DNA from: Pseudomonas sp. IAC-BECa141
GTDB taxonomy: Bacteria > Pseudomonadota > Gammaproteobacteria > Pseudomonadales > Pseudomonadaceae
Length of the DNA stretch: 64,000 nt
NCBI RefSeq assembly: GCF_020544405.1
Contig: NZ_CP065410.1
Location: forward strand, 4,030,001 to 4,094,000
Direction: 5' to 3'
Positions within the stretch are counted from its first letter, which is position 1, and every line of letters starts with the position of its first letter. A model generated the notes under the pieces. That model was not told the DNA's origin. It searched no databases and was given only the letters and a program-made list of their open reading frames with translations. A program made the position numbers and the translations under genes. This document shows positions 6,683 through 63,239 of this stretch, in pieces.

Positions 6683-8365
6683 TCAGATACGGAACTGCCC
6701 CACCAACTTCCCAAGTCGCTGCCCCAGATCCGCCAGACTGCGCGAAGTCTGCGCCCCCAACTGCGTCTCATCCGCCACGTTATCCACCGCCACCGCAATC
6801 TGATGCACGCTGCGGTTGATCTCCTCCGCCACCGCCGTCTGCTCTTCAGCGGCGCTGGCAATCTGAGCATTCATCGAGTTGATCGTCGCAATCAGATCCG
6901 CCATCGCATCCAGCGACGCCCCCGCCTGATTGGCCTGGGCCGACGTACCGTCACCCGCCTCGCTGGAACGGCGCATCGCTTCAACCGCCGACTGCGTCCC
7001 CGCTTGCAAGCGATCGATCATCCCCTGGATTTCCTGAGTGCTGATCTGTGTGCGCGACGCCAGCGCCCGCACCTCGTCCGCCACCACCGCAAACCCGCGT
7101 CCGGCCTCACCGGCCCGAGCCGCTTCGATCGCGGCGTTGAGCGCCAGCAGGTTGGTCTGTTCGGCAATCGAGCGGATCACCCCGAGCACGCCGACAATCG
7201 ACGACACGTCCTGTTGCAGGCTGTCGAGGGACACGCCGCTGCTGCGGATGTCGTCCACCAGCGCATGAATCTGTTTGATGCTACCGGCCACCACGCGTTT
7301 GGCGGTCTGACCTTCTTCGTCGGTCTGCTGCGCGGCAACGGCAGCGTTCTGCGCGCTCTTGGCGACTTCCTGGGCGGCGGCGGACATTTCGTTGATCGCC
7401 GTGGCCACCTGATCGGTTTCGTGGCGTTGACGCTCCATGGCCTGATCGGAGCGCTGGGCCTGATCCGAGACTTGCGTCACCAGCCCGGTCAGTTGCGAGG
7501 TCATCTCGGTGATCTGCCGCACCAGGCCGTGGATTTTGTCGACAAAGCGGTTGAACGAGCCGGCCAGTTCGCCGAGTTCGTCCTGGCTGGTGATGGTCAG
7601 GCGCCGCGTCAGGTCGCCCTCGCCCGCCGCGATGTCATCGAGGTTGGCTTTCATCAGGGTCAGCGGTCGCAGGATGGTATTGGCCAGCAGCATTCCCGCC
7701 GCCGCGATCACCAGCAGCACCACCACCGCCACGCCGACGATGCTCAGCACCACGCCCTGCATGCGTTCCTGCACCTTGGCCTCGACCACCGCCACTTGCG
7801 CTTCGATGCCATCGAGGTTGACCGACGTACCGACCGCCATGTCCCACTTCGCCAGGTATTCGGTGTAGCCGAGTTTCGGCACCAGCACTTGCGCGTTGCC
7901 CGGCAGCGGCGAGCTGTATTGCAGGTAGTGGGTGCCGTCCTTCGCGACTTTCACCAGGTCGCGATTGACGTAGACGCCGTTCGGGTCGCGGTTGTCCTTG
8001 AAGCTTTTGCCCACGCCTTCGGGATCGTTGGCCTTGAACAGGCGCACGGTCTCGGAGTCGTAGCCGAAAAAGTAGCCGTCCTTGCCGTACTTGATGCTCG
8101 ACAACAGTTTGATGACCTGCGCCCGCGCCTCGGCGTCACCGGGAGCGGCAGCGTCGTACAACGGTTTGATGGTGGTCATGGCCACCGCGACATAGCTGGC
8201 CAGGGTGGCCTTGGCGTCGCCAAGCAGGCGTTCGCGAGTCTGTTCGACTTCCTTGCGCGCCTGTTCCTGAAGGATGAACAGCGTGGTCAGGCTGATCACC
8301 AGCGCAAAGAGCAAGACCGGAAGGACGGCAAGGGACAGGACTTTAGCCTTGAGACTCAGGCGCAT
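6683..8365 (-). CDS. Methyl-accepting chemotaxis protein, single Cache domain
   Basis: A 560-aa chemoreceptor. TM1 is at about residues 8-32. A periplasmic sCache-type sensor follows with the typical [10 protein letters not shown] and [10 protein letters not shown] blocks. TM2 is at about 205-228, then a HAMP domain and a cytoplasmic signalling hairpin whose tip carries [20 protein letters not shown], the CheA/CheW contact site. The C-terminus (LVGQFRI) lacks a CheR-tethering pentapeptide. The ligand is unknown; sCache_2 sensors often bind small carboxylates. A sigma-28-like promoter is present at 8408-8434. Confidence 0.92.
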
Positions 8366-56885: not shown

Positions 56886-57150
56886 GGAGTAACTCCCGAC
56901 GGATAAGAGGTTAGGAGCCGCCACCTTCGCTACCAAACTAGGGTGGAGGCCATACGCAGGTTGGTAGACCGGCCGTCAGGAACCCCGGCGCATCCGAAGA
57001 TGCCCTGCGCATGACCACCATAAAACGAAGGCTCTGAAAGCCTCCGCAAGACAGTAGTCTTGTGCTTCTGACGGAATCCGGGCTACCAAACCCGATCACT
57101 GTTTTTCAGTGACCCAGGAACGATAGAACCCCCGTGCTAGAGGCACAAGC
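56886..57150 (-). ncRNA. C4-antisense-like structured leader of the DUF6124 gene
   Basis: Read on the minus strand, this region is a chain of hairpins: TCACTG/CAGTGA (57112-57096), CAAGAC/GTCTTG (57062-57047), AGGCT/AGCCT (57043-57029) and GCATC-TTCG-GATGC (57003-56990). A longer CTGACGG/CCGTCAG pair (57074-57068 with 56979-56973) closes the middle. GTTTGGTAGC occurs twice (57091-57082 and 56938-56929), and the CTACCAA between them (56967-56961) can pair with either. That mutually exclusive layout resembles phage C4 antisense RNA. It is an inference from pairing, not from a model search. Confidence 0.5.
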
Positions 57151-57342: not shown

Positions 57343-57888
57343 ATGGCAAAGCCCGCTGCACGCATCACCGATCCCACCAGTTGCCCCATTCCCGGACACG
57401 GCCCCAAAGCCATTGCCTCCGGATCCCCCGACGTATTCTTCGACGGACTCGCCGCCGCCCGAAAAGACGACATCTGCACCTGCGGCAGCGCACTGGCCTC
57501 CGCCGTATCCAGCACTGTATTCATCAACGGCAAGAATGCCGCGCTGGTTGGCACAGTCGGTTCACATGGAGACGTCGTGATCGGAGGATCGGGAACGGTG
57601 ATTATTGGTGACTCACATACGCCTGCGCCGTTTACGCCGCCGACGCCGATGATCATTCATCCTGGATGGATCAGCTTCACCATCCCCGGTTCTGAGTCTT
57701 ACCTAGGCATGAGCTGCGTTGCTCACTTCGAAGATGGTTCTACCCAATCCGGAAATTTTGATATCACCAACACTGTGAAATTTCTCAACATCCGTGGAAA
57801 AGTCTGCCAAAAGCTAGAGTTCGGCTCTCAAGAAGAACCACCAACTGGCTCAATTTTCGACACGCTATTCAATGCATCATTGAAATAA
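57343..57888 (+). CDS. Type VI secretion PAAR-domain protein
   Basis: A 181-aa protein. Residues 1-95 form a PAAR domain (MAKPAARITDPTSCPIPGHG, GSHGDVVIGGSGTVIIGDSH) that caps the VgrG spike. The C-terminal 85 residues (HPGWISFTIPGSESYLGMSC onward) are beta-rich, with no known toxin motif, and may be an adaptor for the next gene's product. It has the ATG at 57343 after CAGGGAG. The three genes that follow form a compact secretion-linked unit; no vgrG is nearby. Confidence 0.85.
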   Translation: MAKPAARITDPTSCPIPGHGPKAIASGSPDVFFDGLAAARKDDICTCGSALASAVSSTVFINGKNAALVGTVGSHGDVVIGGSGTVIIGDSHTPAPFTPPTPMIIHPGWISFTIPGSESYLGMSCVAHFEDGSTQSGNFDITNTVKFLNIRGKVCQKLEFGSQEEPPTGSIFDTLFNASLK

Positions 57889-59141: not shown

Positions 59142-59861
59142 ATGAAGGGAAAAACCATCGCAACTTTTCTTGCATGCTTGCTACTCGCCGGTTGTTCTGA
59201 CCCAAAGCAAACCAAACTGCCTGCCGATATCAGTAAATGGTCAGAGGACAAAGGGCTAATGGAAGCTGTCGGCAAACTCGATGAAAATGATAGAAAACTG
59301 TTTGGTGGCTATGCTGCCCGGCAAGTGGTGACCAGCACATTTGGCGGTAGCAAAGTTGTTGCAGACTCAACACTGGGTGATGCTCTGAAAACACAACAGG
59401 CCTGGATCGAAGCCAAAGCTGCCGAAGCGGAAAAACAAAAAGCCTTGGCCGAGCAAGTAAAACAGCAACAGCTTGTGGCACTCAAAGAAATGAACGGAAC
59501 GCTTACAGCGTCCCTTCTCAAACTTAAACTGAATCCCGCCGACTATAAAAACAAGCAATACAGTGAATATTTTTCAATTGAAATTGCTCTACACAACAAT
59601 ACAACTGAGGCCCTATCTGGCGTAAAGGGAACAGTCGTACTCAGCGACATGTTCGGCGACCCTATAAAAAGAATTGGCCTCACCAACGACATCCAAATCG
59701 ACCCAGGTCAAACGTACATCTATAGCGGGACAATGGATTACAACCAGTTTCAGGCCGCCGACAAGAAGTTGGCTGCTTCCGACACTGAAAAAATGAAATT
59801 TGAATGGGTGCCGGATACTTACATCTTTACAAACGGCAAAAAGCAAACCATATCAAATTGA
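59142..59861 (+). CDS. Putative lipoprotein
   Basis: A 239-aa lipoprotein with the lipobox LLAGC (residues 14-18). A coiled-coil segment (TQQAWIEAKAAEAEKQKALA) is followed by a beta-rich domain (EYFSIEIALHNNTTEALSGV), which resembles small Ig-like C-terminal folds. TAAGGA precedes the ATG at 59142. It may belong with the PAAR unit, but no direct link is shown. Confidence 0.65.
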   Translation: MKGKTIATFLACLLLAGCSDPKQTKLPADISKWSEDKGLMEAVGKLDENDRKLFGGYAARQVVTSTFGGSKVVADSTLGDALKTQQAWIEAKAAEAEKQKALAEQVKQQQLVALKEMNGTLTASLLKLKLNPADYKNKQYSEYFSIEIALHNNTTEALSGVKGTVVLSDMFGDPIKRIGLTNDIQIDPGQTYIYSGTMDYNQFQAADKKLAASDTEKMKFEWVPDTYIFTNGKKQTISN

Positions 59862-60001: not shown

Positions 60002-61432
60002 ATGAGCTCAGAGCTAATAGTAAAACCCGGTACTGGAATACTCTCAACGGACACAACAAAATTCGAGGCTTATCTTGCCCATCTCGGACTTCCAACCGAC
60101 AACATAATTGCCGCTTTACCTCAACGACAAATAATCGAAAACAATCTTCCAAGCTTTATCGAATCGCTTCCATCCGAAGTGAAACGGGACGCACGATATT
60201 TATCAAAATTCGTGGCCGGAGCGGCAATTGGACTATTCGACGCCTCATTAAACTATGTCTGGAACGAAGTTGTTCTAAACCTAAGGGAAAAAGTAGTTCT
60301 ATATGGACTCGATATGTTCTTCGACGCCGCCGTTGGTGGCGGACGACGGGAATTTTACTCAACAGAAGAAGATCTTTCTGGATTAAAAGACAACACCCTT
60401 ATCAATACGTGTCGAAAACTTGAACTCATATCCGATATTGTTTACACAAAACTAAACCATATTCTAACCATGAGAAATGACATTGGAGCTTCACATCCAA
60501 ATTCTTACTCGATAAATGCATTTGAACTGCTTGGATGGTTACAAACGTGCGTACAAGATATCCTTAACGACAAACCATCCGCTTCCGCAATACAGATCAA
60601 ATCCTTCATCGAGAATCTTAAAAAGTCCACAACCGTACTCGACGACACAACTATTAAAAGCATGGAGAGACCTCTAAGCGAGCTTTCCCTTCAAAATACC
60701 GACAATCTTCTTAACAGTATATTTGGAATATACACCGCAGATACCACCGGCAATATCATAAGAAAAAATATCTCTCTCTTCGCCCCTCACATTTGGAACA
60801 AGAGCAGCGACAATGTCAAATACAAACTAGGCGTAACAATCGACGGATACAAAAACAATCTTCACAACGAAAAGCATATTTTAGGTATAGAATTTTTCAA
60901 CATTTGCGATGGAAATAGATTCCAATCGTTAGACTCTAGAATAATTTCTTTGGATGGTTACGCCGACGAACTTCTCGAAGCAAGATATTCTTGGGATAAC
61001 TTTTACAATGAGCCTCCACTCATGCGTAAAATTTTATCTTTTCTAAAAACAGAGGCAGACATCCCTATAGAAAGATCCCAGAAATTAATAAAAACAGTAC
61101 TAATTTGCCGAATCGGGAAAGGCATTCCTTATAACTCGGGCGTTTCTCCAGCAGGAAAACCTCTTTACGATCAGTTTTTTGGGATGCTCGGAGATCAAAA
61201 CATAATAAACGTACTAGTCGCTATGCACTCAAACGAAGTGCGCGTTAATCTTGACAACAAATTTTGTCAGACACATATGGTCAACGTACTGAAGCTCTTG
61301 AAAGCTAATGCGCGAAGCGAGCGCATTCAAGAAATTCTTGACTTTCTCATCGCCAACGAAAACATTCTTCATAAAATCCATTTAGACAAGCGCTACAAAG
61401 AACTAGCAAAAAACCACATGACATTTAGCTAA
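60002..61432 (+). CDS. HEPN-motif protein, putative defence factor
   Basis: A 476-aa AT-rich gene with no membrane helix beyond a moderately hydrophobic stretch near residues 70-82. The clearest feature is R158-NDIGAS-H165 in LTMRNDIGASHPN, an RX6H motif within a helical region, as in HEPN RNases of abortive-infection proteins. The C-terminal half (about 300-476) is helical and unrecognised. Its codon use and GC differ strongly from the core genes. It converges on the RT gene 219 bp away. Defence is inferred from motif and context. Confidence 0.55.
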   Translation: MSSELIVKPGTGILSTDTTKFEAYLAHLGLPTDNIIAALPQRQIIENNLPSFIESLPSEVKRDARYLSKFVAGAAIGLFDASLNYVWNEVVLNLREKVVLYGLDMFFDAAVGGGRREFYSTEEDLSGLKDNTLINTCRKLELISDIVYTKLNHILTMRNDIGASHPNSYSINAFELLGWLQTCVQDILNDKPSASAIQIKSFIENLKKSTTVLDDTTIKSMERPLSELSLQNTDNLLNSIFGIYTADTTGNIIRKNISLFAPHIWNKSSDNVKYKLGVTIDGYKNNLHNEKHILGIEFFNICDGNRFQSLDSRIISLDGYADELLEARYSWDNFYNEPPLMRKILSFLKTEADIPIERSQKLIKTVLICRIGKGIPYNSGVSPAGKPLYDQFFGMLGDQNIINVLVAMHSNEVRVNLDNKFCQTHMVNVLKLLKANARSERIQEILDFLIANENILHKIHLDKRYKELAKNHMTFS

Positions 61433-61651: not shown

Positions 61652-62687
61652 TTAAACTCCAAAAGCCTCGAAATCTTCTTCAGCCCTTTTATATTTCTCT
61701 ATTACGGAAATTTTCGATTTATTTTTAGCTTTATTCAATCGCCTTTTAAACTCCAAGCCAGCAACTTGCTTACAGGCTATCATTCGCCCAACTCTCCCCA
61801 TTGCACTATGATAAAGATGAGCCACCTCTTCGAATACCTTACCACTCTCCACTTGAACTTCAAACTCTCGCACTGCAGCTTTAATTCTGTTCCTCTCGGC
61901 TTTAACAACACCAGCAGAGCAACCAGATATACCTAATCCGGTAACAACTAGAGGCTCCTGCTTTTCACCGTATGTAATAGCCTGCCCTTTTTTAGAATAT
62001 GCATTTTTGCTCTTTTCTGCTTAAATCCTTTTTGAGCAAGCATCCCCGTAACCTTCGATACAACTTCTGACCACTGCGCACTTAGCAACTGTTTTTTCGA
62101 AGAGATGGTTATATCATCTGCAAAGCGACTATAAGCTAACCCCTTGGTATGCATCCAATCAACAAGCCGCGGTTCGACATCCCAAAATACCAAATTAGCA
62201 ATATAACTACTGGTACTTGCACCCTGAGGAACGTACCCATCCTTCGTAACGATTAGTGCAAGAACTTCTGATACCCCGCGCCCAAAACCAAAAAAACCTT
62301 CAAAAATCCATCTCACTTTATCAATGGTAATTGATGGAAAAAATTAGTTATATCTTGCAACGCGATGGACTTAGCAGACGCATGTTCCCGCGCATTTGAG
62401 AAAGGACTTCTTGGACTTTTATTATCCTTTATTCCGCCATGAAGATAGATAGGGTAATCAACAAACACAAACAACCTATCGACAAGTTTTCTTTGGATTT
62501 TTTTCAACGGCTCAAAAGCATCATAAGTAACCCTAACACTCTTGTCCTTTTTCTCTTGCAAAACTTCTCGATATAAAAAATTACACGAGACGGATAATTT
62601 TAACAGCGACTCCGGACTTTCACCGAGCATTAAACCAAGTGACTTAAGGCTATAAACAGGCTTCCTTTTATACTTTGCGACGATCAT
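61652..62687 (-). pseudogene. Retron-type reverse transcriptase, split by two -1 frameshifts
   Basis: Three consecutive frames give one RT of 345 residues. Segment 1 (62687-62337) holds NAREH (residues 98-102), the retron NAxxH motif, and QDITNFF. Segment 2 (62337-61987) holds PSITIDKVRW, VPQGAST and the catalytic FADD (189-192, with Phe for the usual Tyr). Segment 3 (61987-61652) holds VVTGLGIS, the VTG motif. Each junction is a six-base homopolymer within T TTT TTC (62343-62337) or A AAA AAG (61993-61987). It may be a slippage-expressed gene, an error or a pseudogene. The start at 62687 (MIVAKYKRKPV) is chosen for similarity. Confidence 0.8.
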
Positions 62688-62763: not shown

Positions 62764-63009
62764 TTATTTCAAGAACTCCATTACAACATCAATATAAACT
62801 GATGCTTTTTCATGGATAAGAGACCAATTTTCGTAACACCACTTAACCGAAATCTGAACTGCTGCACCCTTAATACTCTCAAGGATAAAGCCCTTTTTCT
62901 CAGGTTTCGTTGGTGCGCCTCCTTTTGGATTCTCTTTGCTATCTTTAGTGACGCGAACACCTTCATTATTTTGCACATTCTTCAACGGAGACCGCTGAAG
63001 GCTCTTCAT
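62764..63009 (-). CDS. Hypothetical 81-aa protein coupled upstream of RT
   Basis: An 81-aa protein, MKSLQRSPLKNVQNNEGVRV onward. It is basic and Pro/Lys-rich in the first half and more hydrophobic later (GAAVQISVKWCYENWSLIHE). The ATG overlaps the stop of the preceding 77-aa ORF by four bases (ATGA), and there is no ribosome site of its own, so coupling is likely. No known family is recognised. It may be a retron accessory gene. Confidence 0.45.
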   Translation of the reverse strand: MKSLQRSPLKNVQNNEGVRVTKDSKENPKGGAPTKPEKKGFILESIKGAAVQISVKWCYENWSLIHEKASVYIDVVMEFLK

Positions 63010-63239
63010 TTTTTCATCGATATATCCTCACGGGCTGGATTGCCCCGCCGCGAAGCTTTCAGGCCGAAAGGAACATGAAGGTGTCCATACAAATCGCAGT
63101 TCTGGCTTATCAAACGAAGTTTTATAAGCCCGTCCGCCGCAATATTCGCCGTGTGATCTGAGTAATCGTTGATTCGGCCAACGGCCGGCTGCTTTTTCGT
63201 TAACGGATACAAACCTTCGCTAACGCTCAAAGTCGACAA
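63006..63239 (-). CDS. Hypothetical 77-aa protein, Ash/Icd-like
   Basis: A 77-aa protein, MSTLSVSEGLYPLTKKQPAV, then SDHTANIAADGLIKLRLISQ. It starts with TTG at 63239 after ACGAGG (spacing seven). The text resembles small phage-borne Ash/Icd-like proteins that follow C4-antisense leaders, but the assignment is from memory and uncertain. The stop overlaps the next start by four bases. Confidence 0.4.
   Translation of the reverse strand: MSTLSVSEGLYPLTKKQPAVGRINDYSDHTANIAADGLIKLRLISQNCDLYGHLHVPFGLKASRRGNPAREDISMKK

Follow-up and report, generated by a model that had tools for sequence, protein, structure and literature searches.

The reverse transcriptase (RT) of a retron-type system lies on the minus strand (62687–61652) of the window, the stretch of 64,000 nucleotides analysed here (bases 4,030,001–4,094,000 of the complete 6.22-Mb chromosome of Pseudomonas sp. 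IAC-BECa141), and is spread over three reading frames, each step being −1, as seen by direct reading, from the open reading frames and by alignment with an intact protein. Judged from its sequence, the locus is probably an ordinary and intact retron in a Pseudomonas defence island, the apparent frame breaks being single-base under-calls of homopolymer runs. Its interest is mainly that of a caution about assemblies, with an ordinary retron underneath.

The three pieces of the RT, the two break sites and the elements upstream are listed in Table 1. Consecutive stretches of the PADLOC RT_VI profile match piece A, then piece B, then piece C, and the Pfam family RVT_1 is recognized in B (1.9e-8; PADLOC RT_V, 1.8e-29) and weakly in A (0.041), which argues for one RT encoded across three frames; piece C gives weak matches with PADLOC RT profiles (best, 2.5e-4). 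Piece A departs from the homologous sequence straight after DITNFF and ends at an out-of-frame stop. The first-pass annotation of this DNA had described an RT with NAREH, VPQGAST, FADD and VTG motifs distributed over three frames, and direct reading of the pieces bears this out. It had also set both breaks on X XXY YYZ heptamers, and the heptamers and their coordinates proved exact, both being in frame. The −1 step that it had proposed at each break is confirmed as well, and the 345 residues predicted for the joined product are precisely the length of P0001, a natural intact RT from another genome retrieved from the protein database. The first 119 residues of piece B are identical to P0001 (119/119), as are 108 of the 113 aligned residues of piece C. 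Altogether, P0001 and the pieces differ at five aligned residues, four of which lie within the final eight, leaving one change in the first 337 residues. The PADLOC retron RT models applied to the pieces and to P0001 place the RT in the retron clade, and the catalytic (Y/F)ADD and VTG motifs are present. The score of the RT with NCBIfam retron_St85_RT is 116.6 bits, under the cut-off of 235, and its best relative of solved structure by sequence is the Ec86 (Eco1) RT (7v9u, E 1.1e-18, residues 24–199 of P0001), a remote similarity.

Table 1. Coordinates in the window of the RT pieces, the frame breaks and the upstream elements.
Feature	Position	Strand	Description
Candidate retron ncRNA (msr-msd region)	63004..63148	−	Conserved, structured and non-coding; precedes the small ORF
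Small accessory ORF by the RT	62764..63017	−	88% identity with the L031 protein (84 aa); alignment includes 12 homologues
RT piece A	62313..62687	−	ATG start, NAREH; PADLOC RT_VI 3.2e-22; 117/117 residues identical to P0001 up to NFF
Frame break 1 (site 1)	62337..62343	−	T TTT TTC (62343–62337), in the zero frame of piece A; codons of the conserved N-F-F
RT piece B	61948..62340	−	VPQGAST, catalytic FADD; −1 relative to A; open from 62340, stop at 61948
Frame break 2 (site 2)	61987..61993	−	A AAA AAG (61993–61987), in the zero frame of piece B
RT piece C	61652..61999	−	LVVTGLG (VTG motif), C-terminal region, stop at 61652; −1 relative to B

Using the middle piece B as the query, we collected 54 homologous loci (L002–L055): 29 loci from 28 of the 397 other genomes sampled in the genus (E up to 1e-10; the genus search covered a sample of 398 genomes), 23 from a genome collection and two from viral contigs. 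Note that these collections overlap and contain duplicates (several upstream sequences are identical), so that the 54 loci do not represent 54 independent cases. The 23 named RT relatives comprise 22 from Pseudomonas and one, distant, from Sessilibacter. The RT is a single open frame of 314–487 codons in 53 of the 54 loci. A frame break at site 1 or site 2 occurs in none of the 54, it being understood that in the distant loci L018–L030 and L053 the columns of site 2 are partly gaps, an open frame being all that these loci show. The nearest relative for which DNA is available is P. koreensis B1M1-15 (L031), with 87% identity over the middle piece. Its RT is cut by an in-frame nonsense codon (L031:5244–5246) located away from both break sites; the reading frame is identical before and behind this codon and crosses both sites. 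The nonsense codon of L031 represents either an independent inactivation of the same RT or an error.

Compared to L031, the dN/dS ratio is 0.066 for piece A, 0.076 for piece B and 0.117 for piece C, which indicates purifying selection and a similar constraint before and behind the breaks. With a ratio of 0.084 over the whole RT, the possibility of an old pseudogene was rejected. A near copy of the retron DNA was sought in 144 genomes (IAC-BECa141 and 143 relatives), where none was found beyond IAC-BECa141's own, the DNA that encodes P0001 being absent from them too, and the 1649-base retron stretch had no match in the plasmid collection. Six records of the phage collection carry distant RTs, all with less than 40% identity. 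The viral contigs contained no relative of the N-terminal piece of L031, and the pattern of the upstream element described below retrieved from them the L054 contig only, which already belonged to the locus set.

The first-pass annotation had considered double programmed frameshifting. In such a reading, two successive −1 ribosomal shifts (or transcriptional slippage) would yield the full RT from the DNA as given. Both breaks do lie on in-frame slippery-type heptamers, with the homologous sequence resuming in the −1 frame behind each, and dnaX uses A AAA AAG as its slippery site. The likeness to dnaX-type −1 frameshifting is that heptamer; the locus differs in that no stimulatory structure was found and that its relatives are unbroken. 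More specifically, among the features expected of a programmed −1 shift, a zero-frame heptamer is present, whereas neither a downstream structure nor conservation of the break was found: the 66-nt stretches downstream of the two sites do not fold more stably than shuffled sequences (z +1.43 for site 1 and −0.39 for site 2, pseudoknots lying outside the model). At site 1, 13 of the 54 homologues (L031, with an identical T TTT TTC, and 12 others) have an X XXY YYZ heptamer in an unbroken frame because the conserved N-F-F codons, which precede P-S-I, spell it. At site 2, two loci have a heptamer, L054 and L031 (A AAA AAA in the latter), and their frame is unshifted. At the break sites, long runs are absent from most homologues.

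The coincidence between breaks and heptamers is also weaker than it appears: the 1036-base region contains 14 XXXYYYZ strings, counting any frame, and any run cut to six bases makes such a string, with a chance of about one third of being in phase. At least two further in-frame heptamers, at 62580 in piece A and 62296 in piece B, are not accompanied by a break. Moreover, two shifts in succession would multiply the losses, and the third shortening, which affects the small-ORF start, would require another mechanism. Our literature search yielded nothing that joins programmed ribosomal frameshifting with a retron RT. If true, a double frameshift would be a new way of restraining an anti-phage reverse transcriptase; on this evidence we find it unsupported and very unlikely.

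The other proposal of the first-pass annotation was homopolymer under-calling, with one base missing from each run. At site 2, the A run is indeed one base shorter than in L031. At site 1, the T runs of the two are equally long, and the alignment places the one-base difference in the adjoining C run; in this detail, the proposal is not entirely exact. A third difference affects the start of the small ORF, where an A run is again one base shorter than in L031. The start codon of the homologues corresponds to 63017–63015, and all 12 aligned homologues have a Met in this column; in IAC-BECa141, the ATG at this position and two further codons are followed by a stop because the A run is shortened, and the listed ORF of 81 aa starts at 63009. 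Hence, about 1 kb of DNA contains three one-base differences from L031 that affect reading frames. Considering these three frame differences against the lack of any residue change in A and B up to the breaks and the even constraint, errors of reading would fit the sequence better than decay.

Shortened runs are also found well beyond the locus. We compared 880 kb of the chromosome with the corresponding parts of the nearest relatives, G253 and G353 (96% and 95% identity, respectively, over a probe gene from the window), taking runs of at least three bases in IAC-BECa141 whose flanks match in all three genomes, a choice that renders the shortening of IAC-BECa141's three-base runs invisible. Runs that were shorter or longer in one genome alone numbered 29 and 7 in IAC-BECa141, 7 and 1 in G253, and 8 and 6 in G353, with 13,541 runs of equal length. 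For runs of at least five bases, the corresponding figures were 23 and 2, 2 and 0, and 2 and 4. The excess of shortening persists after allowing for the longer branch of IAC-BECa141 (p = 0.0007 and 0.0003, with branch lengths estimated from mean identities). As to A/T runs of seven (n = 25), IAC-BECa141 was shorter in five, G253 or G353 had changed in three and 17 were equal. The one-sided excess of shortened runs over near relatives that is expected of assembly errors is therefore observed across the 880 kb.

Broken genes were counted as well. We considered genes of at least 150 codons that are intact in both relatives, as delimited by a crude, purpose-made gene predictor, and retained only those with exactly one frame-breaking indel, located between 10% and 90% of their length, because some apparent breaks were start-site artefacts. 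By this measure, IAC-BECa141 has a single interior frame break in 12 of its 340 conserved genes (about 3.5%), compared to 1 of 326 for G253 and 4 of 321 for G353; swapping the reference genome gave 12 of 330, 0 of 311 and 4 of 324, respectively. The difference has a p value of 0.003 relative to G253 and of 0.075, which is not significant, relative to G353. The 12 breaks comprise nine of −1, two of +1 (insertions) and one 5-base deletion, the ratio of 9 to 2 not being significant when taken alone (p = 0.065). With 12 genes in 340 broken, slippery-looking breaks need run-length controls before they are given a biological reading. Among the conserved genes, those starting at positions 3744313, 3823436, 3949728, 3957818 and 4005763 of the chromosome (G000:C1) each have one interior −1 break located in a G/C run, and these breaks are possibly assembly errors too. 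Note also that the frames of the two mutator genes covered, mutS (886 aa) and mutL (653 aa), are open, and a mutator strain was rejected.

Run deletions that fragment genes in long-read assemblies are described in PMC12007338, and homopolymer indel errors are also what Homopolish (PMC8011154) is concerned with. IAC-BECa141 resembles the former case in that run deletions fragment genes, but its rate is far under that of the worst case cited in PMC12007338 (23.3% pseudogenes). In conclusion, the near-identity of the intact protein P0001 and the excess of run shortening relative to G253 and G353 support under-calling.

The same differences would also arise if one-base run deletions had truly and recently broken the RT, making the retron a young pseudogene. 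Loss of the RT does occur in the clade, as illustrated by L031, whose RT carries an independent nonsense codon, and run indels are a natural kind of mutation, few of which are seen in G253 and G353; neither the comparison of broken genes with G353 nor the 9:2 ratio is significant. Other observations count against under-calling: six of the nine indels relative to L031 over 2015 bases leave IAC-BECa141 longer (these six are confined to the upstream part, which is more diverged and apparently non-coding), the hairpin of its upstream element carries a mismatch, and the estimated quality of the assembly is high (99.99% complete). However, two breaks plus a displaced small-ORF start, set against the single residue change relative to P0001, would be odd for neutral decay, and the changes in runs of at least five bases are strongly one-sided. 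We consider a real inactivation unlikely, while granting it appreciable weight.

One-base differences from L031 at three reading-frame places of one operon could also suggest contingency runs in the RT and the small ORF, which would switch the retron off and on within the population by phase variation. Contingency loci normally have runs longer than six or seven bases, so that those found here are short for this role; most homologues lack a long run at these places, and the shortening extends over 880 kb, beyond the operon. Phase variation hence appears scarcely credible. More generally, it is highly improbable that the three shortened runs are both real and regulatory, whether through slippage or phase variation, with the defence expressed in a minority of cells or translation events.

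We regard the two −1 breaks and the shortening at the small-ORF start as most likely due to under-calling of one base each, in homopolymer runs of this assembly or next to them, and the living cell most likely has an intact RT frame. The locus is retron-like and comprises a conserved element of structured RNA, an accessory protein that is small and helical, and the RT, within a low-GC defence island. The layout itself, i.e. the conserved element followed by the small ORF and the RT, is common to the homologues. A pattern search detected the element in 40 of the 54 loci, which provide 24 distinct sequences besides that of IAC-BECa141; since the pattern includes AGAACTG, the invariance of this motif is by construction. 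The hairpin that precedes AGAACTG exists in 14 versions, in which pairing is kept while sequence and length vary (i.e. covary), and 12 of these have no mismatch. One mismatch is present in the hairpin of IAC-BECa141 and one, elsewhere in the stem, in the version common to L013, L014 and L016; 21 of the 24 other copies have none. Rfam contains no family for the element, with one match at a loose threshold (E 0.55), and the whole element stretch of IAC-BECa141 folds no better than shuffled sequences (z −0.04). On the basis of conservation and covariation, we take the element as a candidate retron ncRNA.

The small ORF belongs to a family of proteins of about 81–86 aa that share a conserved N-terminal stretch resembling HNxEGVRV or HNxEDARV. 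The structural model of the small protein, of low overall confidence (mean pLDDT 64), displays two C-terminal helices and a first half of low confidence. No family match was found for the IAC-BECa141 protein in Pfam and PADLOC, for eight homologues in PADLOC or for the L031 homologue in NCBIfam. A conserved retron-like layout in Pseudomonas, with an accessory protein that matches no family in the libraries searched, is a side result of this analysis, and the product of the small ORF is a candidate retron effector. In known retrons, according to PMC12548924, a complex of RT, RNA and DNA restrains a toxic partner until phage infection; types IV, V and VI, a small ORF and frameshifting are not mentioned there. 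By analogy, the RT described here would reverse-transcribe a portion of the element's RNA into msDNA, and the complex formed by RNA, DNA and protein would keep a toxic partner (perhaps the protein encoded by the small ORF) inactive until phage infection frees it.

Regarding the retron type, the locus resembles PADLOC types VI and V by the scores of P0001 (219.2 bits with RT_VI, the best, and 210.4 bits with RT_V, the next) and by its FADD and VTG motifs. Type VI is described with a DNA-binding partner gene in PMC8541194; in contrast, Pfam and PADLOC revealed no DNA-binding family in the three neighbouring ORFs scanned here (the small ORF and the ORFs at 60002–61432 and 59142–59861). Given the gap of only 9 bits between RT_VI and RT_V and the lack of a DNA-binding partner among these three ORFs, we assigned the locus neither to type VI nor to any other type.

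At the right end of the window, the GC content drops from about 62% to 40–46%. Just beyond it (L056:4426–8681, i.e. G000:C1:4094426–4098681) lie genes for a DUF6119 protein, a DUF2326 ATPase and an HNH/ABC-3C protein, the last two of which match PADLOC PDC-M68B and PDC-M68A, respectively. These PDC-M68-like genes, which are followed by an ORF of 425 aa that we take to be UmuC-like, perhaps constitute a second defence system. The low GC content and these neighbours give the region the look of a defence island. The block that IAC-BECa141 has in common with L031 begins some 70 bases into an L031 ORF that is presumably dihydrouridine-synthase-like (L031:3632–3700; around 63689 in the window), and this position suggests the insertion site of the island. 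Finally, at 56939–57126 (−) and 57363–57434 (+), we noted a C4 antisense RNA, the motif that it targets and P10, a Pseudomonas sRNA located within an ORF that weakly matches PAAR; an ORF that overlaps the C4 match recurs nearly unchanged in L031, at 7725–7886.
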